From Candidatus Endolissoclinum faulkneri L2 (GTDB lineage: Bacteria > Pseudomonadota > Alphaproteobacteria > Thalassobaculales > Thalassobaculaceae): DNA of 64,000 bases. Shown piece by piece: positions 5,770-29,400 of the stretch (position 1 is its first letter; each line of letters starts with the position of its first letter). The notes under the pieces are model-generated. The model saw nothing but the letters and a program-made list of their open reading frames with translations, searched no databases and had not been told where the DNA came from. The position numbers and the translations under genes are program-made. The stretch lies in NCBI RefSeq assembly GCF_000319385.1, contig NC_019566.1:1379266-1443265 (forward strand), in the 5' to 3' direction.

Positions 5770-7788
5770 TCTTATTAAGATAATAGGTAAGGTAATTATT
5801 GCATCAATATCGCTATATCTGTCTAGTAATTAAAAATAAAAGTAAATATCTACTTTAGATAAATTACAATAAAGCTATTTACTATATAAACGATAGTACA
5901 CTTTTCAAAAAGAATAACTATTATTCATTAATTGATTTAGAAAATGTTACAATTAACCATTTTCGAGGATTTGTTTATAGACAAGGTTTTTAGTATTTTT
6001 AAAAAATTTAGCTTGATTAAATTTCATTTATTTATTTTTAAGATGAAAGTTATAAACTACTTTTTAAATTTTAAAAGTGTGAGGTTTATATAAAAAAACT
6101 TCTACCTTATCATTCTATCCCACTGTTAATTAAGCAGTATATTTTATATGCTAAATTATAAAAACCCAACTTTTGATTAAAAACTTTAAGTTAATTTATT
6201 AATTACTCTCATGCTATAATTGAAGAATTCACATATTAACTTCCGTCCAAGTATGCTGAGTATTTATTAATATTTTATTGTGTGATTATATTAAATATAA
6301 CAAGAATTTTCCTTTGATTAACATCAGCTTAGTTAGCTATTTTTTAATTTAAAATATTTGTAAAAATTTTAAAAATTTATCTCTATAGAATATGGCAAAT
6401 AATATTGCATTTCTCTAGTGTGGCAGGTAGAATCTTTATTGAAATTAAAATAGTAAAGACAGTATTAATGCATACTGCTAAGGTAGTATAAATAGCTAAC
6501 GCTAGTTTAAAAAAACCTTTTTTGCATTGGCAATAATCTAAGTCAAAATTTATAGCTTGTACTATCCTCAATAGTATTAAAAATTCTGGTTATAAGTATT
6601 TAATTAAATAAAGCGATCTTAGATTAGCTCGCTAATTAGTAGTTTACTAAAAATAAAACAGACTATTATATGATAATCTTAGTAATAATTTTTAATGCAA
6701 CATAAAATGTCAGATATAGCTCACTTGATAAATGTATATCCAAGCATATTTTTATATATTTCCAAATATCTCTATCATTTTTCCAAGCATTAATTTAATT
6801 ACCCTGTCTGCTTATTGTATTAAATTCAGTTAATGATATTTTTAATCAATATGAAATTGATTTGCGGCCTATTTAAATATACTAATCTTTTACTATAAAA
6901 ATCACTAAATATATCGTATGGAATAATATTCAAACAACACAATAACAGCTTAATATAAGCTTTATATTCTACTGCGCATGCACATATGTAATTATACAAT
7001 TCTACAAAGATTAAAATAAAAAACACATTACAGTTTAGGTTTTTTTGATTAGTATCTTGTAAAGAAATAAAAAACAGCCTAAAATATCATTGTGGCTTTT
7101 GCTAAAAATACCTAGCATTTAAGGTGCTTCTTAATATGATTATCTATATAGTTATAATATATAAGATTGTGCTATAGATCAGATAATAAATACTAAAGCT
7201 AATATAAAAATACGCTAATTTAATATATATATTAGCATTCTAACTAATTAATATTAATTTATAATTTAATACTACCGATTATTTAGATATAAATACTTAC
7301 TTGGGATTGATATAAATAATTTAACTAAAATACAGGATATATATAAGTACAGAAAATACAAAGTAGATATGCACAACTGTGCATATACAGGTATAAATAT
7401 TTTTATATTTTACTAAGAAATTATTGAACATATGTTTAATACACTATCTTGTGTAGTGCTCTATCTTACAATAGTAAGATATACTAAATTTCAAAGCAAA
7501 TTGATTTCTTTTCCAAAAAAAAGAATGCAAATAAGCTTAAAGCAAAGAAATTTTAGTACGTACAAGAATATTATTTTACCTACAAATTAAGATATTTAAT
7601 ACCCAAGATTATTTTAAAGATCAACTTTATAAAAAAACATCTAATCGTGAACAAATGAATATTTTGCTATTATTAGCGTAAGCAAATTTAATTAAGTTAT
7701 TATATTTTATTTTAAAATATTTACTAGACGGTAGGTAGTAAATTTTGTAAAAAAATATTTTACTTCTCGGTACTGATAGCGTAATTCA
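5770..7788. other. Two-kilobase gene-poor AT-rich region
   Basis: This stretch is extremely AT-rich and dense in stop codons. The few open frames are 60 to 70 codons, with low-complexity Ile/Leu/Tyr/Asn-rich translations that match no family I know. I see no tRNA-like TTCGA arm, rRNA, insertion sequence or strong hairpin. It may be the eroded remains of lost genes, but none can be identified by eye. Confidence 0.55.
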
Positions 7789-9117
7789 CTAACTAATTGA
7801 TATCTCATCAATAGTATTACGTAATAGATTATTCATATCTTCTACAGAAATATCTGAAATGTAGTGAGAGGAGCTTAACATTAAAGTATCACGATATTCC
7901 ATAACTAGAATTAAAATAACTGGCTTACGAATAGGACAGCTATAAAACTCTATTCGCTGAGGTGCAATTCCAGCAAAGCGTAAGCGTTGCTCTGAGATTC
8001 TTCCAACATTAGTAAATGTTGGTGGCATAGTTTTCCCCTCACAACTGGCAATCATTTTATCTATCATATCACGTTTACGCAAAAATGATTTTTTAGCTAA
8101 AAAAGGTAGTGTTAAAGGATTGCTTGCTCCCATAAAACCAGTACGTTGACGCTTCATTTCTTTTCTAAGTTGATCAATTGTATCTGAAAAGCTTAATCCA
8201 ATACCTTTATCGATAAAAACATTAGCTACGCCGCTAAGATTACATACAGGAGGACGCGCAGCCACCGCTGCATAGCGTCGTACGTTATTTGGAACAGACA
8301 ATTGAATTGAATGATTTTTGTATTCAACTCCAACGAGCTTAGAATAAGCACGGGCAAATCCTGCAAGCAACAAATCATTGCGAGTAAGAGCAAGTATAGA
8401 GGCAAATCTATCAATCTCGAGCAATCTTGATTTAGGAACCTCAAATAAAGCAAGGCTTATATCATCCCCTCGTTTCATTAAGTCTGCTGGATTATGCATT
8501 TTAAATCCAACCTGAGGTTTACGCATACGTAATATATCACCAATATCACGTCTAACAATCCGCAAACGATCAAGCCAACCAAATGACTTTAGCCAAGCAA
8601 AACTATCTCGACTAGTAAAATTTGGCGTTAGAGTATATGTTATATCATTGACCAAAGCAGAATAAATTTTAGCAAAAAGAATAGCAACTTCAAAAAATGC
8701 TCTACCATCAACCAAATAATGTTGCATTCTCATTAGCAAACGATCATAATCATCTCCTTTGAGCAAACTAATTGAGAAGTGTGGTACAGCATCAAGATCA
8801 TACGGCAATGCAATTAAGCGTATTGTATCAGCTTCTACATCATTACTCTTGGTTACGGAAAAATTAGAAACAGCATCAAGATCATCACGTCGAATCCAGA
8901 TTGGCTCAGCAGAGTTTAAATCCATCCGACAACCAATAACTGGCTCAGCATCCATAATTATTCGTGTAGTACGACGCAGAATATCTATATCTAATCGATG
9001 AAAACAGTCAAACGAAGCAAATAAATTACCAGTTAGACATTTTTCAGAAAAAATCCGAACAATTTGATCCTGAAATTGAGTTGGAAAAGTATTAGGTATA
9101 TTCATGTTTGGATTCAT
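7789..9117 (-). CDS. Condensation-superfamily (PapA/WES/C-domain-like) acyltransferase
   Basis: The 442-residue protein resembles the CoA- and carrier-dependent acyltransferase superfamily that includes NRPS condensation domains and PapA enzymes. The catalytic HxxxDG motif reads HYLVDGRAF, with His near residue 133. A C-terminal segment containing FTNVGRIS resembles the SNxG region of PapA-like and wax-ester-type acyltransferases. A standalone enzyme of this type usually joins an acyl group from a thioester to an alcohol or amine. Its start overlaps the stop of the upstream ECH2 gene by four bases (ATGA), so the two are probably co-translated. That linkage suggests a late acylation or chain-transfer step in the polyketide pathway. 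The substrate cannot be read from sequence. It could instead act in lipid metabolism. Confidence 0.72.
   Translation of the reverse strand: MNPNMNIPNTFPTQFQDQIVRIFSEKCLTGNLFASFDCFHRLDIDILRRTTRIIMDAEPVIGCRMDLNSAEPIWIRRDDLDAVSNFSVTKSNDVEADTIRLIALPYDLDAVPHFSISLLKGDDYDRLLMRMQHYLVDGRAFFEVAILFAKIYSALVNDITYTLTPNFTSRDSFAWLKSFGWLDRLRIVRRDIGDILRMRKPQVGFKMHNPADLMKRGDDISLALFEVPKSRLLEIDRFASILALTRNDLLLAGFARAYSKLVGVEYKNHSIQLSVPNNVRRYAAVAARPPVCNLSGVANVFIDKGIGLSFSDTIDQLRKEMKRQRTGFMGASNPLTLPFLAKKSFLRKRDMIDKMIASCEGKTMPPTFTNVGRISEQRLRFAGIAPQRIEFYSCPIRKPVILILVMEYRDTLMLSSSHYISDISVEDMNNLLRNTIDEISIS
9114..9117 (-). promoter_or_regulatory. ATGA stop-start overlap coupling ECH2 and acyltransferase
   Basis: On the minus strand the TGA of the ECH2 gene and the ATG of the acyltransferase gene share four bases. 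This arrangement usually gives translational coupling. Confidence 0.9.
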
Positions 9118-9863
9118 TTATTTCCCCAGCGATCGCGAATTCGAGATGGTACTTCAGAAGCAGCAAAAGTTATATCGTGCATTGCTATTTCAAGGTCTAC
9201 TACATTCTGTAGCCGAGACACTCGATCACGATTTAGGTGCTTTTTAAGCAAGCGTAGAGCTTGAGGTGGCTTATCAGCTAAATCTTGAGCTATGTTCAAA
9301 GCAGTCGAGATAACTTTTGCTCGAGGTACAACAGGAAAAGGTATTCCTCGAGCTTCTAAAGTACCGCCATGATAGCTCCGAGCGGTTAAAAGCATCTCTT
9401 CTCCAAGAGAAGTACCTAATTTTTCTGGCAAAATCATTGTAGAGCCCATTCCAGGGGTAAATCCGTATTTCATAAAATTAGCAGAATACAAGGATTCACT
9501 TGCCATAACCACTATTTCAGCATACAGCCCAAAAACCAAACCGCCACCCAAAGCATGCCCTTGCATCGCAGAAATTACTGGAACTGGGCAATCCAATAAA
9601 AGACGATAAAAGCCAGCCTCATCAAAACGCTGCTTACGTTCCGCTATGCCTATTAATTCCTCCATAGTGCCACCAGCCAAAAATATTGTATCAAATCCAT
9701 GCAATACAATTACTCTTGCCTCCGAATCATTAGCTACCCGCCTTATAGATTCAAACAATCCGGCAACTAAAGCACGTGTAAAAGTATTTCGACCATCATA
9801 ATCCTCCATAGAGATAATCCATATACCACCATCTTTGCGAGAAGTTTTTACAACTTCGGTCAT
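9114..9863 (-). CDS. Polyketide beta-branching enoyl-CoA hydratase-like decarboxylase (ECH2, PksI/BaeI type)
   Basis: The 249-residue protein belongs to the crotonase fold. It closely matches, as I recall it, Bacillus PksI: oxyanion-hole segments FLAGGTMEE and QGHALGGGL, followed by SANFMKYGFTPGMGST. The YxANFMKYGFTPGMG block is characteristic of the ECH2 group, which decarboxylates a 3-methylglutaconyl-ACP intermediate to leave a beta-methyl branch; the ECH1 dehydratases differ there. It acts in the cytoplasm on ACP-bound chains together with an HMG synthase, a decarboxylating KS, a donor ACP and ECH1. Of those partners only a donor-like ACP is visible here, fused to the large PKS upstream. 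The stop overlaps the next gene's start (ATGA at 9114-9117). The start has only a weak GGGG upstream. Confidence 0.88.
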   Translation of the reverse strand: MTEVVKTSRKDGGIWIISMEDYDGRNTFTRALVAGLFESIRRVANDSEARVIVLHGFDTIFLAGGTMEELIGIAERKQRFDEAGFYRLLLDCPVPVISAMQGHALGGGLVFGLYAEIVVMASESLYSANFMKYGFTPGMGSTMILPEKLGTSLGEEMLLTARSYHGGTLEARGIPFPVVPRAKVISTALNIAQDLADKPPQALRLLKKHLNRDRVSRLQNVVDLEIAMHDITFAASEVPSRIRDRWGNK

Positions 9864-11418
9864 AACAGTAGGCCCCGATACTACAAAAATAAAAATTTCA
9901 TTTTATCACTCCTGAAGTAGCGATTAGGAGCATTAATTATAATGAAATATCACCCAACTAGTTTTTTTTATGCTAAAATTAATTAGGTCTAATAAAAAAA
10001 AAGATATGCTGTAAGGCTTGATAGCACATTAACAGTAGGGTTTATTTATAATCAATCGTTATTAGCTTCTTAAAAGCGCTGCTTATAAAGCTTTCCCTAT
10101 CCTCAATATAAGGATCATATCTAAGCAATATTCAACACTTTTTTAGTCACTGCTAGAAAAAAAATAATGTACAATAAATTATTGCTAATAAAATTTTCCA
10201 ATGTATTAATATACCGGCATGCTAATATTGTGTATGCACACAATAAGGCATGAATAATTTACAGATTTTAGTATCTACTCGGCGTAATATATTAGAAGTA
10301 TATATATTCTTAATGTCCATCTCTGAATAAATCTAAGAAGCCGTAATTAAAGTCAGCGAATTGCATCAAAAAAAAGATCATATCTTTAATTGATTTTTAT
10401 TGACGTTAACTAAAGGATATTGACTTATCCTGCGAGTAATTTAAGCAATCTATCTTACTAAGATGGATAACTAACATTATAAATTAAAAGTAAAAATTAA
10501 AAATTTAATTAACACTTATATCCTATAGCAAGCTTTGCTTGCTATAGGATATAAGTGTTAATTACAACAAGATTTTCTTACAGCGTAAGATAAAAATATA
10601 ACTTTTCAAGTAATAAAGAAAAAAATACTAGTAGTCCTTTAAATAAGGATCCGCCTAAAAAAAATAAATCATATTTAAATCAAGCAACATCGTTATTATT
10701 AAAAAATTTTGACTATTATAAAGAAGATTAGCTAATAAATTTTTTTACTAAAAGTAAAATACATGTTTGAAAATTATAAACATTAAATTAATGACATAAC
10801 TATCCATTAAAACTACTGTATAATTACTTTAACTTAAATTGTCCATAATTATTATTTTAGCTATACTTTATCTAATATCTAAAGTAAGGATAGATTGAAT
10901 ATCGGTATTCGGATAGATAGCTAAAGAAATAGCTTATTTTTATATCTATAGCATTACTAAGCTAAAAGTAATTAAATTAAAGATATGTAAGACGTTAGTC
11001 TATATCGTAAATAAAATTCAACAAGTTTTCTGCTTAGAAGAAAGCAGTAATTAATTGAAAATTATAATAATCAAATAGCACAATATCGACCATATGTAAT
11101 CTTGACTTAAGATACTAGTAACAGTTATTTCTTTATAATATATTTTACTTTTATCTTATCAATTTTTATTCAAACTATCTTTAATAATCTTAGTCTTGAA
11201 AGTTAAATATTTTAAATCTCGTATTAATTAATATCAATTAATTTTAAATTATACAATTGTCAAAATACCAATGGACTAATATTTTCATAATAAAAATAAT
11301 ACATAAATTACTAAATGGCAAAATTATTAATCTAATTAATCATCTTCGAAATAAAATTTTCTTGTATTATCCAACTATAAATCACTTAAAAAGTTTAATT
11401 TATTCATGTATTCAAGCA
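9864..11418. other. Gene-poor AT-rich region with one strong hairpin
   Basis: This gap of about 1.55 kb lies between the end of the large PKS gene and the ECH2 gene. It holds the long perfect hairpin at 10506-10564. The minus strand also has AGGAG before a seven-codon frame at 9901-9881 that ends at TAG, just upstream of the ECH2 start. I see no other gene, tRNA or repeat. Confidence 0.55.
10506..10564 (-). terminator. 28-bp perfect hairpin, probable terminator of the PKS operon
   Basis: Arms 10506-10533 and 10537-10564 are fully complementary around a three-base loop. Read on the minus strand, the hairpin is followed by a T-rich tail (AAATTTTTAATTTTTACTTTT). It lies about 850 bases beyond the stop of the 6545-residue PKS gene. 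The hairpin plus T-tract suggests a Rho-independent terminator separating the PKS genes from the ECH2/acyltransferase pair. Confidence 0.65.
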
Positions 11419-14400
11419 TTACCTATCGGTACTAGCTGCATTAAGATGCTTATATAAAATATCAATTAAAGCATTAATATTTGCAAGACCAACTAAATCA
11501 CGTGGTGGTATATCCAATCCTAACTCCTCCATCGCAGCCAAAGTAACTTCAACTCGATCTAATGAGGTCGCACCTAAGTCAGTCATGCTAGCCTCTGGCA
11601 TAATTTCTTCTGCTGGTACATCAACTAAACCTTTACGAATATTATCTAGCACTACATTAACCACATGCTCACGAGTTATTATTTTTCTAGGTGTAATACA
11701 CAAAAAAGAATGAATTGCTTCTACTACTTGGTTTATATTCGGCTCTAACACAAGCGAAAAATGATCGCAGTCAACAGTAAAAATTTTTAACATACCACCT
11801 ACTAACCTATCCCAGCCAAATCGATAATCGCCATCTGTTAGAAAAGCAGGTAAACCAAGCGGGTTATCCTTTGGGGCCATGCCCTGTTCACAACGAATCA
11901 GCATAGTTTTCAACGCCGGATTAATTGGTGATGTATTGTAAGCTGCTAGTGCCCTACCGATAGTGCTAGCAACTACTTCCATACCTTTGATCATTGCGTG
12001 TAACTCTTCACGCTTCATTGGTGGAGAAGATGTAGAAAAAAGGTGATCGAGCACAATGTCAAGCCACAAATCTTTATTGCTGTCGGTTAATGCTCCTAAT
12101 TCTAACATTTCCGCACCACCCCAAATACTACTTAACCAATTCGCAGCAAGACGGTATACAAAACCACCACCAAAGGCTAAATCCATACCCTTTAAGCTAT
12201 CAGTACCTGGCGCATTGGCATCAAGTAATATTAAGCTTGCCGCCGGACGTCCACGCTCAGAAAGGATACGAGCTACTTCAAAAGCAATAGCTCCACCACC
12301 AGAGTAACCTCCAAGATTATATTGCCCGATTGGGCATACTTGCTCCAAAAGATCAGCATAAATATTAGCAAAATCTTCGATCATACTAGGTATCGGCTGG
12401 TCGCCGTGTAAACCAGGAGCCTCAAAAGCATAAACTGGAATTTCTGCGGCTAACCTTCCACCTAAATTTACAGCCCAACTCACTTCCCCCGGTGCACCAT
12501 GAACAAAAAACAGTGGAGGTATTGACTGCAATGTACCCATTCCAGTCTCACGAATTGCTACTAAAGGTGAACGTGGCAAAACCGTTGTTGTCGTCGACCT
12601 AGCAGTATCAGTGCTAGCACTAAGAGCTTTTGCTAAAGCAGAGATACTGCAATGTTGCCATAGTATGGTAACAGGAACTGGCCTTTTTACTAAGCTTTCT
12701 AGCCGTCGAGCAATTTCAAGCCCAGAAACAGAATTCATACCTAATTCATACAATGGTTTTTCGTCAGAAATTTCCTTAGACATCAGACCAAGAACAAGCG
12801 AAACCAAAGAACGTATTGATTCTATAAGCTTACTATCAACTGAAGGTTCTGGTAATGATAGAGACAAGGTACTTGATTTACTTGGAATTGTTAATGAGTC
12901 GGTGGGCAAGCAATCTGGAATTGCTGAATCAACTGCTACGATAATTCTACCTACCGCTTTGCGGCTAGCCATGCGTCGATATGCATCGACAATATGCTCA
13001 AATCGATATACACTATCAACTAGGGGATGTATTTTATTGTCTGCTAATACTTGCGCAAGATCATCCATCGCTACTGCCGTACGCTGTGGAGTAGCCATAA
13101 CCCGGCCAAGATTGACAGTAATAATGCTTTGGTTATCCATAAGGCGAGAAAGATCAACTCTTCCAGATGCCATTAGTCCAGCCAATGCGATTTCGACATA
13201 CCTACCGCCAGGAGCCAGAGAGTTAATTCCTTCTTGAATCGCCGAACCACCAAGCAAATTTATCACCACATCAGCACCAATCCCGTTAGTTTGTTCAAGG
13301 ACCCAAGCGGCGACCACATCAGTACCAGCGTTGTAATCTATAACTACTGCTCCAAGCGCCTCTATAGCTGCAATCTTCGTTGAAGAACCAACAGTCGCTA
13401 ATACCTTAGCTCCTACGGCTTTAGCTAACTGAACTAAAATTGGCCCAACACCACCAGCTGCAGAAGTTACCAGCAATGTTTCTCCTGATGCAAGATCAGC
13501 TCTATTAAGTGCATAACGCCCAGTTAAATAAGCAATTGGTAAAGCTACGGCTTGAACAGAATCCAAATCGTCTGGAATTGGTGCAGTTAAAGATGCAGGT
13601 AATGTCACATATTCTGCATGGCCACCACGCCCACCCGTAATCGCAACAACACGATCACCAATATTACGTTCTTTCACCTTAGCTCCAACAGATATAATTC
13701 TACCAACCACCTCCATGCCAGGTGTAAATGGATAAGGCGGTAAATTTGGATAGCTACCTCTCAAGCTAAGAAGATCACCAAAATTAAGCGAAAAAGTTTC
13801 TACACAAATGCCTACTTCGTCAGGCAGTGGTACTCCGCGCGGAACCTGCTGAACAATAATATCATCAACGTCCGATGGGCGATAAATTCGTACTGCCTGA
13901 TAAGTTTTTGCATTAGAGTCACTAATATTTGTTTCTGTCAAAACGGTGGCGCTCTTTGAAGATGATACTACTGTGTCAATCCAACATCTTCGTCTCTCAA
14001 AAGGATATGTGGGCAAAGATACTGGAATAGGCACTGCGTCCTGCCAATAGGCGCGCCAATCTATCGGCGCTCCCTGGACCCAAGCTTTAGCAAAATCTTG
14101 CGCTGAAGCAGACATACTAGGAGTAGCAAGAGAACGGCTATTAGCCTTACCTTGGGCTACACTTTTACACTTTTCACCTGATGAAAAAGCCCGCAATCGT
14201 TGCACCAAGGTTTGACGATCCTCAGCCACAATCGCCAGTCGAAAAGCCATCGCTTCACGACCAACCTGTAACGTCCAAGCAACTGACGAAATTAAATTTT
14301 GCCCCTTATCTAAGTAATCAGCTAATCTTCCAGCCATTTCTAGCAGTTGTTCAGATTTCTTTGCAGAAAGAGGAAAAACTTGTGCCACAGAACCGACAGA

Positions 14401-17400
14401 AGAGGAAACTTTTCCAATCATTGGCGCCTCAGCGACAACCAATACAGCACTTGATCCACCTGCACCACTAGCAGTAATAGTAGCGATGCGAGGTTCATCA
14501 CCCCTAGCCCATGGAGTTACTGTGTCTGAGAAAACAAATTTATCTAATTCTACATCTGGATGTAATTGGACTGGAAGCGCGAAAGGAAGTATCTTTTCTT
14601 GTTCTAGCTGAAGAACCACTTTAGATAATTGTGCTAAACCTGATGCTGCTGAAAGATGTCCAATAATCCCCTTTAAAGTTCCAAGTCGACGCGATCCGCT
14701 CGCTGAATTATACACCATAGACAAAGCACTTGCCTCTGCAGGATCGCCAATGGGAGAACCGGCAGCCTGTGCCTCAATATAACTGATAGCATCAGGAGAA
14801 ACTTTGGCGTTATCCAAAGCAACACTAATCAGTTCAGCCATTGAAGCTGGACTTGGTAACATGTATCCAGTAGAAAGTCCATTTGATCCAGAAGCACCTC
14901 CAAGAATTATTGCTCGCACACGATCTCCATCACGCTCAGCATCTGATAATCGCTTAAGTACGACTGCACCAACGCCATCACCCTCAACAAAACCGTCAGC
15001 CCTAGCATCAAACGGTCTGCCTATACCATTAGGTGATAGCAAACCCATTGCCGCCATAGCGCGTTGATTCTGCGGATGTAAAAGCAAATGAACGCCGCCT
15101 GCTATCGCTGCGTCGATTACGCGATTACGCAGAGCATCAATAGCTAACAATATTGCGTGTAATCCAGCAGAACAAGCAGTATCAACTGCAATACTTGGGC
15201 CTCGAAAATCAAGTTGATGCGAAACCCTGTTAGCAATCGACCAAAAAGACGATCCAGCCAAACCGCTACCACCGGATGCTAAATCCAACGTCCCGATACG
15301 CTGGTAATCAGTACGCATAGCACCAGTATAAACTCCAACTCGACGCCGATCTCCACCGAGCTGCCGAGGAGTAGTTGCTGCATTTTCTATAGCTGCCCAA
15401 ACAGTTTCTAAAAATATTCGCTCCTGTGGATCCATAGCTGCTGCTTCAGCCGGAGAAATTTGAAAGAAAAGCGGATCAAATCGATCAACGTGTTCGATTA
15501 TCGCAGCATTATGCGCACCTGGTTCAGGCGCAGCAAAATATGGCCAACGCTCTTCTGGGATCATGCAAGCCACGCATTCACCCGTAATAAGAGTATTCCA
15601 AAAATCCGCCTCATTCTCCCCTTTAGGATAGCGCCCAGCCATACCAACAATAGCAATAGGTTCTAGATTTCTAATATTAAGGGAAGAAGACAACGCTAAC
15701 TCATCTGTTACAGGAGCAATATTGACCGAAGATACTGCAGCGTCCAAGTTACTAAGGGAAGGAGTAGAAGTAATAGTACGGTTAGTGTTTGTAATAACTT
15801 CAAAAGTATTAGATGCAAACTTATCATCACTAAAATTAGCAGCAATTTCCACTGGCTTTTCTCGCAATAACACCTGAGCAAAACCATATAATGTAACGCC
15901 CTCAAACAATAATGAAGTGGGGAATGCACCAATTTTATTCTCTATCTTAGCCCGAATATCCATGGCGACTAAAGAGTCAACCCCATAAGCTTCATACGGT
16001 TCATCTACCGCAAGCTCCGAAGGGCTAAGTTTTAATGCTTTACTGAAAATATCGCGCAACCAATTAATCAAACCACTATTAGTCATATTAACCGCTGGCG
16101 TTGAACAAACGTTAGAAGAAGACTCAGACTTAACGCGATAACCTGGCATCCAGCCATTAGATACCGCAGCGATAATACTTTGACCACTCTCTGGGCCAAG
16201 CTCACCAAACGCTGAGGATATAAATCCAGCTCTACTGAGCAGACCACGCCATCCCGATACGTCGAGGAGCGGACCTCCATGAGGCATTCTTGCTGCTGAG
16301 TCCGTATATGCCCACCAACCCTCTGTTAACCCAAAGGTTAAAGTTGCTAAGTCTGATCTCGCCGTCATTTCATTCAACAACAATACCCCGCCCGGAGCCA
16401 AAAGTGCTTTGACATGATCAACAGCCCGAGAAAGATCAGAAGTAGCGTGTAATACATTAGAAGCGATCACCAAATCATAAGCCCCGCATACAAAACCCTG
16501 CTTAATGGGATCAGCATTAATATCAAGAACAGAAAAACTTATTTGGGGCTTATTCGCAAAAAGTGCTCGAGCTGGATCAAGAAAAATAGATGACACATCT
16601 GTCATAGTGTAATCAAAATCTTGACCAGAAGCTGATAAAGCCTCAGCAATAGCAACTGTTGCGCCACCAGTACCAGCGCCTACCTCTATCACTTTTAAAA
16701 GCCTATCTGGCATAGCCATAGATAAGGTAGCAGCTGCTAACATTGCGTTATACGGGTCCGAAGAAGGGTTATCACGATATACAGCTTCCACCAGTGAAGC
16801 CGATCCCTTGGGAAATAATACATCCGTCGCCTTACGAAGGTCAGTAAGCACGGCAGTTAATCCATCAAGACAAGTCTCTAACAATTTTAGATGAGCAGAC
16901 AATAAAACTACTTTTGGACGCTCGGGTGCTTTCATGGTAGAATTTACTCTTAGAGTAACCATACCATCACGCATAATTAATACACCAGACCTTGCCATTA
17001 TATCAAATAGAGCTGTCAGTAAACGACTATAGTTAGGATGTACGCCAAGATGGGTAGCAATATCTTCTAACTTCTTGGTTCCCTTTTGCAAAGCTGCTAG
17101 TTTACCAAAGATGTCAATTAATTTAAGGCGACCATATTCTTCAATTGCCAATACATCTGCGACAGCAATACTTAATCTTTCTTCATCTAAATTAGGCCAG
17201 CTGTTCAGGCTAGCAAGTGCGTTTATTCCTAATTTTTCCGAAATAGGTAATACTTTTGGTGGAAATAAAATACGAGTTACATCATTTTCTACTTGAGATA
17301 AACCAGTAGCGGTAAAACGCATAACAGCTGCTATCTTTATATCACGACCTAGCAGCCAGCGAAAAACAGCTAATCCATCTTCAGTACTAATAGGATCTAC

Positions 17401-20400
17401 TCCAGCCGCAATAGCCCTAGCGCGATAATCATCGCGCGCCACTATCCCCGTCTCCCCCCAGAAACCCCAATTAATCACCGATACTCTAACACCTTTACGA
17501 CGCCCCCATGATAAAGCCCAAGCATCAATAAATGTGCAGCCTGCTGCATAGTTTGCTTGACCTGGATTGCAAGTTAAAGAATTACTAGAAGAAAATATAG
17601 CTAACCAGTCTGGCCGACGCTCTCCTAAAGCTTGTTCCAAAGCTACTGCGGTGCGCGATTTATTAACTAAGGCACGATCCAGAGTCTCAGCATCCATAGT
17701 TTCCACCAAGGTGTCTGACAACACAATAGCAGCATGGATTATCCCGACAATTCGCCCCCACTTACTCTCAACAACTTCCACTACATGACTCAATGCAAAC
17801 GAATCAGTAGCATCAACCTGACAATACCACGCAATACCTCCTGCTGCTTTCACTCTATCCTTAGCTGCACGAATATCGTCATTTTCTTTCCGTCGACCAA
17901 TCCAAACAATACGAGCTGCATAACGCTGAGCAAGATCAAAACTTATTGCTTGTCCAATGCCACCGGCACCTCCAAGGATGAGAACGACACTACCTGTATC
18001 TAGGTGGAAATCTGCTTCGCCTTCAAAATTCAACTCACTAAGTCGGCTAACAAAGCGCCGGCCATCACGATAAGCTATATCATTTAATTCACCCCCGCCA
18101 TCAGCAAGCAGCAATCTTTGATGAGCTCGGCTATCAGCAATATTTTCCTGATCAATAAGTGGTAAATCAATCACTAATGGATTAAGTGCGGGATGCTCCC
18201 GAGCCAAAGTACGAACAAAGCCAGACAAAGCTGCAAATGAATAGTCTTGATAATCATCATTTACCAAGCTATGAACACCACGGGTAACTACTCGCAAACA
18301 TCTGGTAATACCACTGGCAATTAAAAATTTAGATAGCTCTAGCAGCCGGTGCACTCCATCAACTTCGGCATCTTCTAATTTAACTGGATGGCGATCAGAG
18401 AAGGCAACAAAAACAATCGTACGTGCTTCATCAATCTCAAATTTCCAATTCGATAAGTCTAAAATATAAGCTTTCTGCCCTAATAAATTTACTTCATTAA
18501 CTAAATTTCTTGCCCAAGATGTTGCAATGCTTCCTCCAGTTGCTATTAATATAGCAACTGGTCCTTGAAGAGGGGTTAACTGTGAACTTTCAGCAACCCA
18601 ATAGCGCTGTAAAAGAAAAGTTTTAGCAATTTCAATGGACGATTCTGACATCTTAGCACAAAGACCAGAAATTTTTGCTACCAGCATATCATTGGCTGTG
18701 AATAGCTCGGTATTAGCAATAATCGCTCCTGGTTCACTATCTTGACACAAGGATAGACGAGCTTTCGTTGCGCAAGCAATATTTGAACGAACGTAAGCAC
18801 GCTTTAAGCTAGTAGGCATCAATAGCATACCAGGATTACCGCGTTCTATAGCAAAAGCAGCCAATGCATGTAAGGCAGCGTCCAGAATGCCAACTGCTGC
18901 GATATCAATTATTTCTTCACTTAAAATTTTAGTAGGGGGAGTAAAAGTTACTAGAGCTTCATCACCAACCACGCGTACCGATTTTACGCGATGAAATTCG
19001 GGGCCGTAAACAATGCTAGTGTCTTTCAGGAAGTCATAAATTTGTGAAGATTCAATCTTATTTCCACCAACAGGCATCGCCGAAGATTCAACTTCTGGAC
19101 AGACTCCTGTAGTGCGAGTGCCAGTAACAGCACCACTCATCATAGTAAAACGACCATCAGCAGAATTTACTAAATTGATATCAAGACCGCTATCCGTAGC
19201 TTCCACCGGAAAGTGCCAAATTAAATCAGAAACCATCACCCAGTCATCTTGTCCTTGACATGCTATAACTAAAGCAGTAACGCCTGGTAATATACAACGA
19301 CCAGCAACCTTGTGCCCAACAAGGATTGGATGATTTGAAGAAAGAACAAGTGAAGCAACAGGCTTAGCTAAAACAGGTGTAGAATTCACCCAAAAACGAC
19401 GATGATCAAATGGATAACCCGGTAAATCAGCGATACCTCCTCTCGGCAATGCTTGCCAAGATGGCTTTCCTCCGCTAAGAAATAGTCTTACATCATCGAT
19501 AAAAGAATCCGGTACTTGATCACCTACAGCTGTATCAAGATTTGTCTCTTTTCTTGAGATTAAACAAAGAGAATTAAGTAAGCTAGAACGTGAACCAGCT
19601 ACAACCACACAACGACTATTAAAGACGGTTCTACGTACAGCTAAAGTGTAAGCAACATCAACTAAGATAGCATCCTGAGCAATACCATTAGCCAACGTTG
19701 CTGCTAGCCGCCGCAAAGCTACCTGGGATGGAGCCGATAGCGGAAACACCAACAAGTTAGCTAAGATAACAGGCATTGATATTTTGGGAGGAGGGCCAAG
19801 CACCATATGTGCGTTAGTGCCACTAAATCCGAAAGAACTAACTGCCGCTAATGGACGTTCAGGATCCATAGAATGAAGACTAGTTGCAACTCGAAAAGGA
19901 GTATCCTCAAAAGAGATATGAGTATTTGGTTGGCTGAAATTTAAGCTAGGCGGAATTTTACCATAACGCAAGGATAGGGCTACCTTTATCAACCCAGCCA
20001 TACCGGAAGCTGCTAACGTATGACCAATATTCGTCTTCACTGAGCCTATAGCTACTGATTCACGCTCACTTGGCGGAATACCACTCTCGGTAAAAGCTTG
20101 AGTCAAAGCTGAAACCTCAATAGGATCGCCAAGTTTGGTACCAGTACCGTGTGCTTCAACCAAACCAATACGTTGAACATCAATTCCAGCGCGAGCGTAA
20201 AGCCCAGCTTCTAGACGTGCTTGAGAAGCAGCACTAGGTGCTGTAATTGAAGTAGTACGTCCGTCTTGATTGACCGCTGAACCAAGAATGGTAGCGTAGA
20301 TGCGATCACAATCCGCAATAGCCTTGGCTAGTGGTTTTAAAACTACTACCCCCAAACCTTCACCTGGCACAAAACCATCGGCCGCATTATCGAATGTCTT

Positions 20401-23400
20401 GCAAAGTCCATCCGGTGCTAACATACCAGAAGCTGCGGTCATTACATGCATCTGAGGCGTTAACATCAGATTAATACCACCAGCTAACGCTATCTCACAC
20501 TCCCCATCTAATAAACTGCGTACAGCATAATGAGTTGCTACTAAACCAGAAGAACAGGCAGTATCAATCGCTAGACTGGGTCCTTTAAGGTCAAGAAAAT
20601 AAGCAAGCCGCGCTGCTAACACCGAAGATGTGTTACCCAATAACATCTGCCCAGACAATTCAACGCCATCACGCGGCAGCAAATTAACATAATCGCTCTG
20701 CCCACCGCCAACAAATATCCCACATGCTACTCCCTTTATACCTTCACGACTAAGTCCAGCATCCTCGAAAGCATGCCATCCTTCCTCCAAGAATAAACGC
20801 TGTTGCGGATCCATAACCTCGGCTTCCTTTGGTGACAATCCAAAGAAAAGGGGGTCAAATCGGTCCACATCAGAAATAAAGCCGCCCCAACGAACAGCTG
20901 AACATTGAGAAGGGTCAGTTAGAGTAGCGATATTCTCCTCAACCGACCAACGATCTGTTGGTACCTCGCTGATGGCTGAACGGCCATCACAGATTAACTT
21001 CCAGAAGTCCTTAACTGAATCTGCTTTAGGATAACGTGCGGCAATACCAATAATAGCAACAGCTTCATTCGCTAAAGAATCAGTGGTATTAGTTGTTAAA
21101 TTTGATGATACAGCGTGGATCATTTCTTGAGAATCCAAAGTATTATTCGATGGGCTAACACCACTTCCTCCAGGGCTATTATCTGGCCCAGCATTTAAAG
21201 CAGAAGCAATAGCAATAATCCCTTTAAAAGTCATTAAGCGATGTGCTGTCATGTCGCTGCCAAAGGAACGATTCAAGCGATAAGCTATTTCTCCAGCTTG
21301 TACCAGATCTATTCCTAGCTCATTTAGCGGCACATCAAGAGTTAGTGCATTGGAGTCAACGCTTAGTACTTCAGCGACAATCGATCGCACGGCAATTAAT
21401 ACTTTATCATTGTTCTCAATTTCATTCTGATGTGGGGAATTAATATTGCTAGATCTTTCAATACTCTTTGTCTCAAGAAATGATGCATTAGAAACAAGGT
21501 CAACAGATTGTGAATTCTTACCTGAAGCTAAGAAAGCTGCTAGTGCATTAAGATCTGCACAACGGCTAATTTGTTCAAATGTCGGACGAAAACCAATTTT
21601 TATTGCTATATCATCAATGATTTTCGCTGCAGACTCTGGATCAATATGAAAATCAGTAATAGGTGCACTAGGATCGATAGATTCTTCTGATTTTCCTAGA
21701 GAAATTCCAATTCGCTCACGTAAAAAGTTTAAAATAGGAGCAGCTTCTTCAGAAAGCTTTACAGACGAAGATGGATCGGCCATCGGCGCTGTAAAACGAT
21801 TAGACAAAGACGCAGCTACGTAATTAGCAAGATCCATAATGGTAGGATAATCGTACAATCTAGCTGCCTGCATACCAATACCATAGATGTCATTGATATT
21901 TTGTACCACTTCAACCGCCAAGATTGAATCTAGCCCAAGATCGCCAAAACCTGATGTTTCATCCAATACTTCAGGCTCTACATAAAGAGCTTCAGCAACA
22001 ATACGACGAATCTCAAGTAATACGACATCAGCATTTTGTGAAACAGGAGAAGATAGAGAAGTAGATGGCTGAACAATGGATTTGGGTACTGGATTGACAA
22101 AATGATCAGTGACACTTGAGCTTGCAACAAATTTAGCTAATGCTTCGACTGTTGGATAATCATAAAGACGAGCAGCCTGAAGCTTAGTGCCAAAAGTCTG
22201 ATTGATCTCCTGCACTAATTCAACAGCCAAAATAGAATCAAGGCCAATATCGGATAATCCAGCAGTACGATCAATTGTCCCCGCTTCTACGTACAAAGCA
22301 CTTGCCACTAAGTCAGTGATACGATCACCAATCTCTGATTGATCATATTGCAACGCGTTAGGAATGACAGGATTGATTGAGGATGACGATGACGCTAAAG
22401 ATGATTCTTTAGATGATTCTGAGGATGACGCTAAAGATGATTCTTTAGACGATTCTGAGGATGACGCTAAAGATGATTCTTTAGATGATTCTGAGGATGA
22501 CGCTAAAGATGATTCTTTAGACGATTCTGAGGATGACGCTAAAGATGATTCTTTGACCAATGTACTTGTCAAATTAGTCTGAAGATCTGAAGCAATAACT
22601 TCTTCCGTATTTAGCTTTTTCTTGAACCAGCATCTTGGGCCATCTAATGGACGTTCGGGTAATGTTATTCTCGGGCCGCTGGCCAAACCAATATCTTGCC
22701 AATCAATTTCTGTTCCAGCTACCCAAAGTCGAGCAATACGAAGCAGTTCACCTTCTTCCAAAAGCTCTCTTATCATAACATCTGTTTCCGGTCCTTTCGT
22801 CAAAGCCCCAGAACCGACTAAACCTTCGACAACACTTGCATCCGTTGCCGTTCCTTTTAACACAGCAATAGCAGTCCTTAATTGCGCAACAGCGTTATCT
22901 TCTGGCGTTACACGCACCGCAACTCGCGCAGCAAGAGGCACACGTCCCAACATTAAAGTTGCTGCAACAGCAGACAAAGGTAAAGAATGTTCAATTAAAT
23001 AGTTAACTAATATTTCACAATAAGCTATCAATCGTGTTTTGGTCATGGCAGATACTGCCAATAAGGTGCTTCGTTCTAGAAATGATGCAATAACTTGCTT
23101 CGGCGCCTCTTCAAGCACTACATGAGCATTCGCTCCACCAAAACCAAATGAACTAATACCCGCACAACGCGGTCCTGCGTTAGGTTGTTTAACCCAAGCC
23201 TCAAGGCGACTAGCGATTCGTATCAAACCATCAGATAAGTCGATTAAAGGATTAATATTCTCAACATGTAAACTAGCCGGAATAGTATGATGGCGTAATG
23301 CCTGAATTAACTTTACAAGGCCAGCTATCCCAGCTGCTGGTTCTAAATGACCAATGTTAGATTTTACTGAACCAATCGAACAAGCAGCCGTGCTATTAGT

Positions 23401-26400
23401 GCGCCCTAAGGTGTGGAAAGCTTGCCTCAATCCCTCTATTTCCACTGGATCACCAAGCTCGGTACCTGTACCATGAGCCTCTATATAGCTAATAGCGTCC
23501 ACATGAATATTAGCATTGCGCACCGCTCGAACAATCGCCTCTGCCTGAGCAGAGGCATTAGGTGCTGTTATAGTTTGAGCATGACCGCCATGACTTACAG
23601 CACTCCCGCGAATTACCGCAAGTACAGGATTGCCATCGGCCAAGGCATTCTCAAGTGGCTTTAAAAGGACGGCACCAACACCTTCACCCTTGACATAGCC
23701 ATTAGCCCTAGCGTCAAAAACAAAACAGCGACTGTCTGGAGAAGCAACGCCAAGCTTACGCACAGTCTCCTCACTATCGGGACTAAGCATAACACTAACC
23801 CCACCTGCTAACACCATCTCTGCCTCGTTAGCGCGTAGGATTTGAACTGCGCGGTGAACGGCAACTAACGATCCAGAACATGCAGTATCAACGGCCTCGC
23901 TTGGCCCAAGCAAATCAAATAGCCACGAGATACGGTTAGCAAGAAGTGCAGAAATGTTACCCAGTGCCATTTGGGCTCGAGAGGATTCATCAAAAGGCAC
24001 TAACCGAGCATACTCGTTAACCTGACTTGCAAATAAAACACCGATCCTACGTCCAGCAAGCATATCCATACGCAGCCCAGCTGCTTCAACTGCATTCCAG
24101 GAAGCTTCAATAGCTAGCCGATGCTGCGGATCCATAAGCAAAGCATCACGCAACGATAAACCAAAAAATTCGTATTCAAAGCGATCCACACAATCGATAT
24201 AGCCACCAATACCGCCGCTATGCTCCAATCCCCAATCATAGCGATCTTTTGGTACAGAAGCAATTAAATCACGTCCAGCTTCCAGATTACGCCAAAATGC
24301 ATTTACGTCCGGAGATCCAGGAAAGCGCCCCGCCATACCAATAATAGCGATCGCGCTATTATTGGTATGCGTAACATGGGATGAAGAATTTGACCGCGAT
24401 CCCGACAATACAGAAGAGTTAGCTGAGTTTGATATTATAGACGCTCTGGCTGCAACGTTATGTTCTTTGATCAAATAACTAGCAAGAGCAGAAATCGATC
24501 CATGAGCAAAAAAGACTGCTGGAGACAAATTAATTCCAAAAGTGTGAGAAATCGAAACAGCAAAATCCTTCAAAGCAATAGAATCAAATCCAAAATCCAC
24601 TAGATTGGAGTCAAGCGTCAATCGGTCAGCAGGAAGTTTCATCTGCTCCGCAATAAGCTTTGTCAAAGTTGTCGCCACTGTACTAGCTGAATAGTCTTCC
24701 TTATGAGAGGATTTGGTAGGGATAATCGTAGATTTTTGGGATGAATTGACATGGTTTATCTGGCCATCCATAAGGCTACGCGCTGACATTGCATCACTCG
24801 GTACAATCATTACTGATGGTGCTTTACCGCTCAATACCTGATCAAAAACGATAAACGCCTCCTCAGTACTAATCGCACGTAACCCTGATACTTCAGTAAA
24901 TAGTTGCGATCCGGTAGCTGACATTACCAACTTACCATCCGCCCAAAGCGGCCAGCCAAGTGCGCGAGATACACCATGTCTACAACCATTACGCACTTGC
25001 AAATCACGCCAAGCTATAAAACGATCTGCATAAGCATTCGCTAGAGCATAATCACATTGCCCAAAATCTCCAAGCTCTGCTGCCAAAGAACTAAAAACAA
25101 CAAAAGCTTGCAATGAACGATTGCCAAACACGCTGTCAAGCGAAGCTATGCCAAGAGCTTTAGAACTAAAAACAACGCGCATATCGCTCCACGTTTTGGA
25201 TACTACAGAACCTTCGCTAGCTACGCCAGCTAAATGATAAACAGCACAAATAGGAGCAAAGGTATTTTCTATTTCAGTTATCGTTGTAGTCAGCGCTACC
25301 TCATCAGCTACATCGCACACTCTATAACATGCCGAACTACCAGCAATTTCAATATCTCTTATAGTTTTTCCGATTGCATCATTTTGTATACTACGACCAA
25401 GTAGAACAATTTTTGCACCAGTCTCACTAGCCAGCTTTAGTGCCAGTAAACCAGCCAAAACACCACCACCACCAGTAATCAGAACAGCTGCACCATACGG
25501 ATTTAAAGAAAAAATTCCTTTCTCTAAGAGAACAGGCTTCATCTGCCGCATCTCACGAGATCCACCAACCATTTTTATCTCGCGCGGGCCGAAGCCAATT
25601 TCAGATAAAATGAGATCAGCTTCAAAAACCTCCATTTCCAAAGTTCGCACCTGAGCTCTGCCGCCCAAGAAATCTATTGATCGACCAAATGAAACGAAAG
25701 CAGATTCACCTGGTGCCCCTCGATGCACCAACAACACTGGAACAGAGCGACCAGAATTTGATAGCAGACCTTGAACAACTGCTAAGAGAGCAGCACCAGT
25801 ATCTTCAGCTAAGAAAGGATTGTCAGGCTCCCTGCTTCCTAAAATCACTATAGCGTCTGATTGATTCGCAGCTGAGTGCAATAACTCAGTTTCTCGAAAT
25901 AATAATCTTCTGGAGTTACCAAAACTCCAACCAGCAACGATCTCAGCAGCTACCGGATCTTCACCCACAACTAGTAATTGTCCAGAAACAGGTACTACAG
26001 GTGCTGAATCACTAACCCAATCAGCTGCCATTATTGTTACTTGAGGAACTTGAGATTTATTGATTACTAATCTATTATCAGGTACTTGGATCCAGTACGG
26101 GCTCAATTCAAATGGATAAGTTGGCAAACTAATTCTCCGGCCACCCAAGCCAATATTTGAAAAGTTTATTTCACAACCATCACGATACAATTTCGCCATA
26201 TCATCCAAGGTTGTATTGCTCTTCGAAACGACATTATCACACCGCAGTGCTGATACTAGCTCCACAATCGAATCAGCGACAGTGGCAAAGCGATGCTCAA
26301 AATGAGTTCTACCCATTGCTAAAGTCATTGCTATGTCAGCCAAAGCTAATGTTCGACTTTCCAAATATTCAGCAAGTTCTCTACGTTTAGTCGCTAAAGC

Positions 26401-29400
26401 GGTTAATGTTTTAGCAGATAACAGAAAAAGCTGCTGTCCTGTGACAGCTTGTTTTCGTAAAGACTCAGGTCCTTCTTCAATTACCAGATGGCAATTAGTT
26501 CCACTAAAACCAAAAGAACTTACAGCCGCTCTACGCTTCGCATCGTTCTCAACCTGCCACGATTCTAGCATTGTAGGCACTCGGAATGGAGTTTTAGACA
26601 AGTGTAATCGAGGATTTTCTTCATTGTAATGCAGCGAGGGATAAATCTCCCCGTCACGCACCGCCAGCACGGCCTTTATAAAACCACCGATTCCCGCAGC
26701 ATGAGCAGCGTGACCAATATTGGTCTTAACTGACCCAATAGCGCAAAAACCAGATTCATCAGTCCAATCCGCCCAAGCACGAGTTAACCCCTCTACTTCG
26801 ATCGGATCACCTAATGGTGTCCCAGTACCATGGGCTTCAACGTAACCGATAGAAGTAGGATTAATGCTATAACGAGAATAAACCAAGCGATGTAAAGCCG
26901 CTTGGCTTTCTGGGCTAGGAGCGGTAATACCATTGGTTTTGCCATCTTGGTTTATTCCAGAGCCAAGAACAACTGCTTGAATATTATCACCATCTTCCAA
27001 AGCGCGAGATAACGGCTTTAGCAACACAGCACCGGCGCCTTCACCGGGCACAAAACCGTCAGCTGATACGTCAAACGCAGCGCATCGACCCTTAAGAGAT
27101 AACATACCTGCCTTCCCGGCAGCTACATTAAAGCCTTTCACAGTAGTCACAAACACTCCACCCGCTAGGGCAATGTCACAATCACCGTCTTGGATACTCC
27201 GGCAAGCGGTGTGAATTGCGACTAATGAAGATGAACATGCAGTATCAATCGCTAAAGCAGGACCTTTTAAGTTAAGCATGTAAGAAATACGAGCTGCCAA
27301 TATAGAGGCTGCGTTACCCATAAAAGCAAAAGACTCCGGTTCTACTCCAGCTAATGTCATACGATGAGTATAGTCTCCTCCATGAGCACCTACAAAAACA
27401 CCACAACGTAAACCATTCAACGCCAAATCGCCATATCCCGCATCTTCCAAAGCACGCCAAGCTTCCATAAGAAATACCCTATGCTGTGGGTCTGTCAGCT
27501 CAGCTTCCTTACCAGACATTCGCATAACTAGTGGATCGAAACCCTCAGCATTAACAAGAAACCCACCCCACCGCTCAAATGGATTAACAGCTCCAGTACT
27601 ATCTACCTCCGGATACCAGCGCGATAGCGGCACCTCAATAATCCCATTATGCCCATCGCGCAACATCTTACGAAACTCATTAATATTTGAAGCGTCAGCA
27701 AATCTAGCAGAAAGACCTATCACAGCAATCGGCTCATCCTTAGAACTGGAAACAGAAGAAGCAAGTGTACTTTTTTCTTTACGTGCGCTATAGGTAGTTG
27801 ATTTTGAAGGTAATGATGCACCAGCAATAGATAAATGACCTGCAAGATCAGAAACAGTAGGATAATCAAACACTACAGTCGGTCGGAGATCAACACCCAG
27901 ATCGATATTGATTCTCTCGACTAAGGCAACACCAAGGATAGAATCCAGGCCTAACTCCATAAAGCGTCCCTGAGAATCAACCTCTTCTACAGGAAGAGTT
28001 AGCACCTGAGCAACAACTTCACGTAAATAGTTATCCAGACTCTTTGAACTAGTAACCTGAGTGAAAATATCTTTGTGGGCAATTTGCATATTGCCATTAT
28101 CTCGGCGATCTGTTCTATGCGCAGATAATACTGGTAGATCGCTAACAGCTTCACCTCGCCTGGCGCAAATAATTGCCTGCACCGCATGACCTTCTTGGTC
28201 AGTTATTGAGTTAAAAGAAACATCAGGAAAATCAGTGCTTTTTAAAATTGTACGCCAACCTTCTACTGAAAGAACAGGAGCATCAGGCAATCGTATATTT
28301 GCATCCTCAAAAGCCCACCAGCCATCAGTTAATCCAAAAGTAAGAGTAGCAAAATCTTGTACATTAACTACCTCGTTTAGGAGCAGTGAACCGCCTGGGA
28401 GTAATAATTCATGTAAACGGTTTAAAGTTTTATCGATACGTTTAGTAGCATGCAATACGTTAGAAGCAATAATTACGTCGAATGGACATTGTGTCGCTAC
28501 AGAACCGGGCAATTCCGCTTCTATGTCAAACACATGAGCTAAGAAATTTAATTCTTTAGGTATAGGCGTTAGATTAGCGGGCGCAGCCTTTACGAAAGCA
28601 CTAGCTACATCAGTAAAAACGTATTTTGCAGAACGTCCGACAGCAGAAAGAGCATCCAAAACGGCACGAGTTGCACTACCTGTTCCGCCTCCCACCTCTA
28701 GCAATTTTAGCGGTCGATTATTTTTTACTGCCATGTCAGTTATAAACTTTGCCAACCGCACGTTCAATTCGTTAGCTAAGGGATTACCACTATATATGGC
28801 CTCGACTAAATCACCCTTCCCGCCAGGAAATAATATCTCCATCGCGGTCCGCTTACCGGTAAGTACCAAAGCTAAACCTTCCAAAGTCGCAACTAGTAAA
28901 TCAAGGAAAGGCGCTGTGTCAGGGTGAGCCGATCGTAAAATAGATTGAGATTTCGCACGATCTATCAGATCTACTGAAGGGTTTGGAAGAATCAAATCAC
29001 CCTCCAATATCAAAACCTTTTGGCGCGCCGCGATGTTAATCAAGGCATCAAAAAGTCGAGCGCGGCTGTCTACCACACCAAGCTTATGGCGAGACCAAGC
29101 ACGAGTAAAATCTCTACGTCCCGTCGAAAATAAACCCATATCTGCTAACACAGATACCAACGCTTCGCGTCCCCAAGCTTCTGCTAATCTAAAAGCTGAA
29201 CCATGCCGCTTCAAAGCTGATTCAGCATCTGAAGCAATAGCAGTTGATACGGATGTCAATTCACCAGGACGAATTCGCGCAAAAGGATAACCAGGTATAG
29301 ACACCCGCCGCGCCTGAAGATCAAATGCTGAACGTGAAGGAAGGTTTCCATCTTTTATAAAAGAATTAATTGTTGTATCATCACTGAAATGCTGCTTGCC

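Follow-up and report, generated by a model that had tools for sequence, protein, structure and literature searches.

The terminal polyketide synthase (PKS) of the patellazole (ptz) locus in Candidatus Endolissoclinum faulkneri L2, PtzD, carries an acyl carrier protein (ACP) behind its terminal thioesterase (TE), and we conclude from sequence comparisons that this domain is very probably the donor ACP of the beta-branching cassette of the HMG synthase (HMGS), joined in frame to the C-terminal end of the synthase. The initial annotation, made from the sequence alone, had proposed that the cassette is partly fused to the assembly-line terminus in this way, a proposal now supported by an ACP tree, a genome search and the synteny of the fusion with the cassette genes KS0-HMGS-ECH1-ECH2 (KS, ketosynthase; ECH, enoyl-CoA hydratase family). 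The assignment rests on the domain order, the donor class of the sequence, the lack of any other donor ACP, a full set of partner genes, synteny and selective constraint. The window, i.e. the whole stretch of 64,000 nucleotides analysed, spans positions 1379266-1443265 of the L2 genome, a single molecule of 1,481,191 bases. It is the patellazole locus, since it contains ptzA-ptzD, ptzG and ptzR in addition to the end of ptzE, and the gene lengths fit the list for these sea-squirt compounds (PMC3851785, Table 5).

The reading frame of PtzD (31056-11419, minus strand) is open to its stop codon through an in-line ACP, the TE and the post-TE ACP. An ACP therefore does lie behind the terminal TE, as initially annotated: the order is ACP-TE-ACP, and the last domain is intact. 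Window positions 11419-11720 encode residues 6446-6545, covering the complete ACP, the short linker before it and the last part of the TE. The features concerned are:

11419..31056, minus strand: PtzD, terminal PKS of the patellazole pathway, 6545 residues (open reading frame and PMC3851785 Table 5)
12622..12825, minus strand: in-line ACP preceding the TE, with a GMNS motif
about 11722..12522, minus strand: TE of PtzD, residues about 6179-6445, nucleophile Ser6252; homologous TE in three loci of relatives (L033, L034, L050)
11422..11679, minus strand: post-TE ACP, residues 6460-6545, intact; proposed cis donor ACP
11563-11565, minus strand: carrier Ser6498 of the post-TE ACP
11554-11556, minus strand: donor-signature Arg6501 of the post-TE ACP

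The TE has GGYSGGG around its nucleophile and a DHF histidine. In the post-TE ACP, the motif DLGATSLDRVEV (residues 6493-6504) places the carrier Ser6498 within GATSLDR. The sister strain L5 has the same ACP-TE-ACP ending, at 89% identity.

By sequence, the post-TE ACP belongs with the donors. Of the NCBIfam models, it fits NF005502/PRK07117 (acyl carrier protein) best, at 4.1e-15 and 55.8 bits, a match beyond chance; we take this to be the AcpK model. Models of fatty acid synthase (FAS)-type ACPs follow well behind, at 34.6 bits and lower. One of the first PDB matches is CurB (PDB 5kp7), an established donor ACP, with mitochondrial and FAS ACPs ranking alongside. The likeness of the serine motif to AcpK-type donors, noted in the initial annotation, holds with the actual sequences of CurB (5kp7) and of the Bacillus velezensis and thiomarinol-cluster donors. 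For a tree of 90 ACPs over 79 columns, donor ACPs were gathered from HMGS neighbourhoods, whose loci also supplied the in-line ACPs, giving 5 post-TE ACPs, 16 discrete donors, 66 in-line and 3 FAS-type sequences. In agreement with the initial annotation, the post-TE ACPs join the discrete donors in one group (support 99/97), to which the FAS-type ACPs are sister (99/96), and all 66 in-line ACPs fall outside. Sisterhood of the post-TE and pre-TE ACPs was rejected by the approximately unbiased (AU) test (p 0.037). By grouping and by its position after the TE, the PtzD domain thus lies outside the class of in-line elongation ACPs. Arginine at Ser+3, a signature found in the present analysis, occurs in 21/21 donors, none of the 66 in-line and none of the 3 FAS-type ACPs, and the serine and every donor-invariant position are retained in all five post-TE ACPs. 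When the post-TE ACP alone was searched with tblastn against 72,556 plasmids, most of the ACPs retrieved were discrete donors encoded next to HMGS genes; the sole embedded one was that of Methylosinus trichosporium OB3b, a relative described below. An AlphaFold model of the TE-ACP, built from an alignment without the OB3b row, places the ACP helices at 284-298, 320-334 and 349-365 with confidence (pLDDT) of about 70-90, while its TE part is poor. Between L2 and L5, dN/dS is 0.085 for the post-TE ACP, 0.105 for the TE and 0.25 for the pre-TE ACP; the post-TE ACP is under purifying selection.

The post-TE ACP is also the only donor-class ACP that a six-frame search with a donor profile finds in the E. 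faulkneri genome. Six-frame searching matters because the bongkrekic-acid donor ACP, BonN, had once been missed as unannotated (PMC12560621). No discrete donor ACP was found beside the HMGS gene (378.7-383.6 kb) or elsewhere in the genome, and only one of the 22 ACPs matching PF00550 is discrete, namely the FAS ACP (630 kb), which scores 35 bits against the donor profile vs 104 bits for the post-TE ACP. The genome-wide check for a free donor that the initial annotation had called for thus yielded none. In each of 25 HMGS-bearing genomes or records there is exactly one donor-class ACP, discrete in 20 and behind a TE in 5; since the profile was built partly from sequences that were later scored, it is this one-per-genome count that serves as evidence, not the match itself. 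In the published list of ptzA-ptzR (PKS, ECH, KS, HMGS, AT, P450, DCR, oxidase, ER and C genes), a separate ACP is absent (PMC3851785, Table 5).

The partner genes, in contrast to a free donor, are all present. Together ptzH, ptzI, ptzJ and ptzG form a complete KS0/HMGS/ECH1/ECH2 set, with ptzH-ptzI-ptzJ at 378.7-383.6 kb and ptzG-ptzR behind ptzD. PtzH has serine in place of the active-site cysteine, as do the KS0s of six other clusters, and PtzI (HMGS) retains its catalytic cysteine in KQACYGG. PtzG scores 316.5 bits against NF005496, above the cut-off of 215; this model is presumably PksI-like. In PMC3851785 the cassette genes are named KS, HMGS, ECH and ECH, and the ptz genes are described as scattered over the genome. 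The two members behind ptzD are:

9114..9863, minus strand: ptzG, ECH2-type (PksI-like) decarboxylase of the beta-branching cassette (NF005496 match)
7789..9117, minus strand: ptzR, stand-alone condensation-like protein, also after ECH2 in two relatives (L033, L034)

The same TE-ACP ending occurs in three further bacteria: M30B52, a Rhodospirillaceae metagenome-assembled genome (MAG); Q54, a Rhizobium-like MAG; and the cultured M. trichosporium OB3b. The fusion is hence not confined to E. faulkneri, since no fewer than three further alphaproteobacteria have it, and TE and ACP share one open frame in L2, L5, OB3b and Q54. In M30B52, Q54 and OB3b the genes KS0-HMGS-ECH1-ECH2 lie directly downstream of the TE-ACP gene; in canonical clusters, the spot directly upstream of KS0-HMGS is occupied by the discrete donor gene. 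The closest parallel lies in M30B52:

G026:C9, about 73.2-153.3 kb, JAGYJX010000011.1 (L096-L102): ptz-like cluster in an unreduced 5.6 Mb MAG

Here ptzF-A-E-B-C-D and then KS0, HMGS, ECH1, ECH2 and the condensation gene (C) lie on one strand of one contig; all six PKS genes are present, the genes are about 46-77% identical to ptz, and the ACP inventory matches. Some reading frames of the cluster are interrupted, which probably reflects indel errors. The Q54 contig carries TE-ACP, KS0, HMGS, ECH1, ECH2 and C and, farther on, P450-, ER- and ptzF-like genes. On the OB3b plasmid pOB3b1, the PKS WP_065083646.1 ends in TE-ACP; its gene overlaps that of KS0, and HMGS, ECH1 and ECH2 come next. The TE-ACP junction is shorter than that of PtzD. 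The ptzR homologue (C) follows ECH2 in M30B52 and Q54 and is absent from the OB3b plasmid region. A separate acyl carrier protein of OB3b, WP_157926098.1, was rejected as a donor candidate, having the in-line motif GADSIIS and a donor-profile score of 22 bits. The OB3b genes belong to a large trans-acyltransferase (trans-AT) PKS cluster at about 27-102 kb of pOB3b1 (L050, L095) with a full-length PtzB homologue (44%), and our literature search found no paper that discusses this cluster.

In the relatives, KS0-HMGS-ECH1 occupies the position that matches the ptzD-ptzG gap of E. faulkneri. That ptzD, ptzG and ptzR have stayed together while ptzH-ptzI-ptzJ lie at 378.7-383.6 kb is as expected if the KS0-HMGS-ECH1 block had moved out of the E. 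faulkneri locus. The gap itself (window 9864-11418, 1.56 kb, 23% GC) holds no ACP and no recognisable KS0-HMGS-ECH1 remnant, and in the 1.65-kb ptzI-ptzH gap there is neither an ACP nor a decayed gene of the cassette (tblastn E about 1 at best in either gap; no open reading frame >60 residues between ptzI and ptzH). The fusion is rare. A TE-ACP profile gave full-length matches in L2 and L5 only among 385 randomly drawn Alphaproteobacteria, and the donor profile found nine other donors, all free-standing in open reading frames of 77-117 residues, in random draws totalling 1523 genomes from four phyla (399 from that of the window; 358, 369 and 397 from those of Okeania, Anaeromicropila and Streptomyces). 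The fusions may share one origin, which the tree weakly favours (80/55).

How the fused donor would work can be outlined from the partner proteins. A trans-acyltransferase (PtzL/PtzK) would load malonyl onto Ser6498, and the Cys-to-Ser ketosynthase PtzH would decarboxylate it to acetyl. PtzI would then take the acetyl group and add it by aldol addition to the beta-keto chain on an acceptor ACP, whereupon dehydration by PtzJ (ECH1) and decarboxylation by PtzG (ECH2) would give the beta-branch. The acceptors are most likely the tandem ACPs at PtzD residues 2912-3093, which would define the branched module; they group with acceptor ACPs that carry the Trp flag of beta-branching (87/87). In PtzD as in OB3b, the proposed donor and the tandem acceptor-type ACPs share one chain, an arrangement that might act as a tether and raise the concentration of donor near the acceptors, an appealing idea. 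The tandem ACPs and the domains behind them are:

21811..22323, minus strand: tandem ACPs of PtzD, likely acceptors, grouping with beta-branching acceptor ACPs
21193..21738 (21526-21738, 21193-21402), minus strand: two ACP-like domains behind the tandem ACPs, degenerate and lacking the Ser

Such Ser-less domains also follow the tandem ACPs in M30B52, and OB3b has related ones (33% identity). Low-complexity, in-frame linker repeats are seen in PtzD (KESSLASSSES units, window 22384-22554) and in PtzE (DVSDPD units, window 3395-3472).

Several observations weigh against a donor role. The NF005502 score of the post-TE ACP is below that model's own cut-off of 79 bits, and with 79 columns the AU test did not reject trees in which the post-TE ACPs leave the donors and are placed nearer the in-line ACPs (p 0.22) or with the FAS ACPs (p 0.34). 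None of the in-line ACPs of the ptz cluster carries the Trp flag that acceptors usually have, so that the acceptor is assigned from the tree only; leucine or valine takes its place in the tandem ACPs of PtzD, M30B52 (L098, G026:C9 about 89.4 kb) and OB3b (L050). The flag is not absolute, as the virginiamycin acceptor ACP5b has phenylalanine (PMC10006238). In M30B52 the frame is interrupted within the TE, which probably stems from indel errors of assembly. The OB3b KS0 (L050 4793-5998) has methionine at its active site (GGGMASG), where the others have serine, and the search for a second donor in OB3b covered the plasmid.

What else might the domain do? Because it adjoins the TE, and because ptzR lies two genes downstream in a position kept in two relatives, it might serve a late step other than branching, e.g. 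as acyl carrier for PtzR or by holding the chain after the TE. We regard this as improbable: the sequence class and the arginine signature are of donor type, OB3b keeps the TE-ACP where the plasmid region lacks a ptzR homologue, and a complete cassette would be left without any donor ACP. In a reduced genome rich in degraded DNA (PMC3851785), the domain could instead be an unused relic of read-through, with the FAS ACP at 630 kb acting as donor, the more so as the tree places FAS ACPs as sisters to the donors. However, the serine and all donor-invariant positions persist in five sequences, dN/dS is as low as that of the TE, large unreduced genomes carry the same fusion and the donor signature is missing from the FAS ACP, all of which make a relic very unlikely. 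In the bongkrekic-acid system, BonF decarboxylates BonN selectively against modular ACPs (PMC12560621). It is just as hard to credit that the ACP is made separately from an internal start and so functions as a discrete protein. In-frame GTG and TTG codons do lie close to the junction, yet no obvious ribosome-binding site is seen by eye, the GTG starts would truncate helix 1 and the OB3b junction is shorter still.

In almost every known pathway the donor ACP, which delivers a two-carbon unit for the branch, is a separate protein. In PMC10006238 beta-branching is ascribed to five discrete proteins that act on the assembly line; the donor ACP is treated as discrete both there and in PMC12560621, where a cis-acting donor is called an "unlikely possibility". 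The proposed donor domain of PtzD shares with the discrete donors (AcpK, CurB, BonN/GbnF and that of the thiomarinol cluster) its sequence group, for which CurB and the thiomarinol-cluster donor were compared, the arginine at Ser+3, its occurrence once per cassette and, in relatives, its place upstream of KS0-HMGS. It differs in being the C-terminal domain of a 6545-residue PKS, behind a TE and on one chain with acceptor-type ACPs, rather than free-standing as is usual; we take the fused state as a variant feature of a donor ACP and not as part of its functional definition. Integrated ECH2-PKS proteins (e.g. KS-ECH2 of Azospirillum) likewise have a part of the cassette built into a PKS, but there an ECH is fused, in PtzD the carrier of the donor group. 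In the ECHQ-TE didomain Art21 (PMC11425284) a TE is joined to a protein of a beta-branching family, but Art21 does not form part of the PKS, its ECH does not catalyse branching, and a type II role has been proposed for its TE. Within PtzD itself, the pre-TE ACP is a carrier next to the same TE, but belongs to the other sequence group. The suspicion that such a fusion had not been described agrees with the searched literature, where we found no account of a fused or embedded donor ACP; prior domain labelling in Kwan et al. 2012 (PNAS) is possible. With a donor ACP incorporated in the terminal PKS, PtzD would depart from the discrete form of donor known so far.

It is likely that in this alphaproteobacterial trans-AT lineage the donor acts in cis, so that acetyl would come from a domain of the assembly line that is tethered to the acceptors, with one-to-one pairing and the HMGS held at the synthase. 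The donor ACP within PtzD would supply the component missing from the published ptz gene list, and annotators who meet a cassette that appears to lack a donor ACP should check behind the TE. PtzD would also offer a natural donor-acceptor tether with a measurable effect, and since one carrier of the fusion, M. trichosporium OB3b, is cultured, a direct test is possible beyond the uncultured symbiont.
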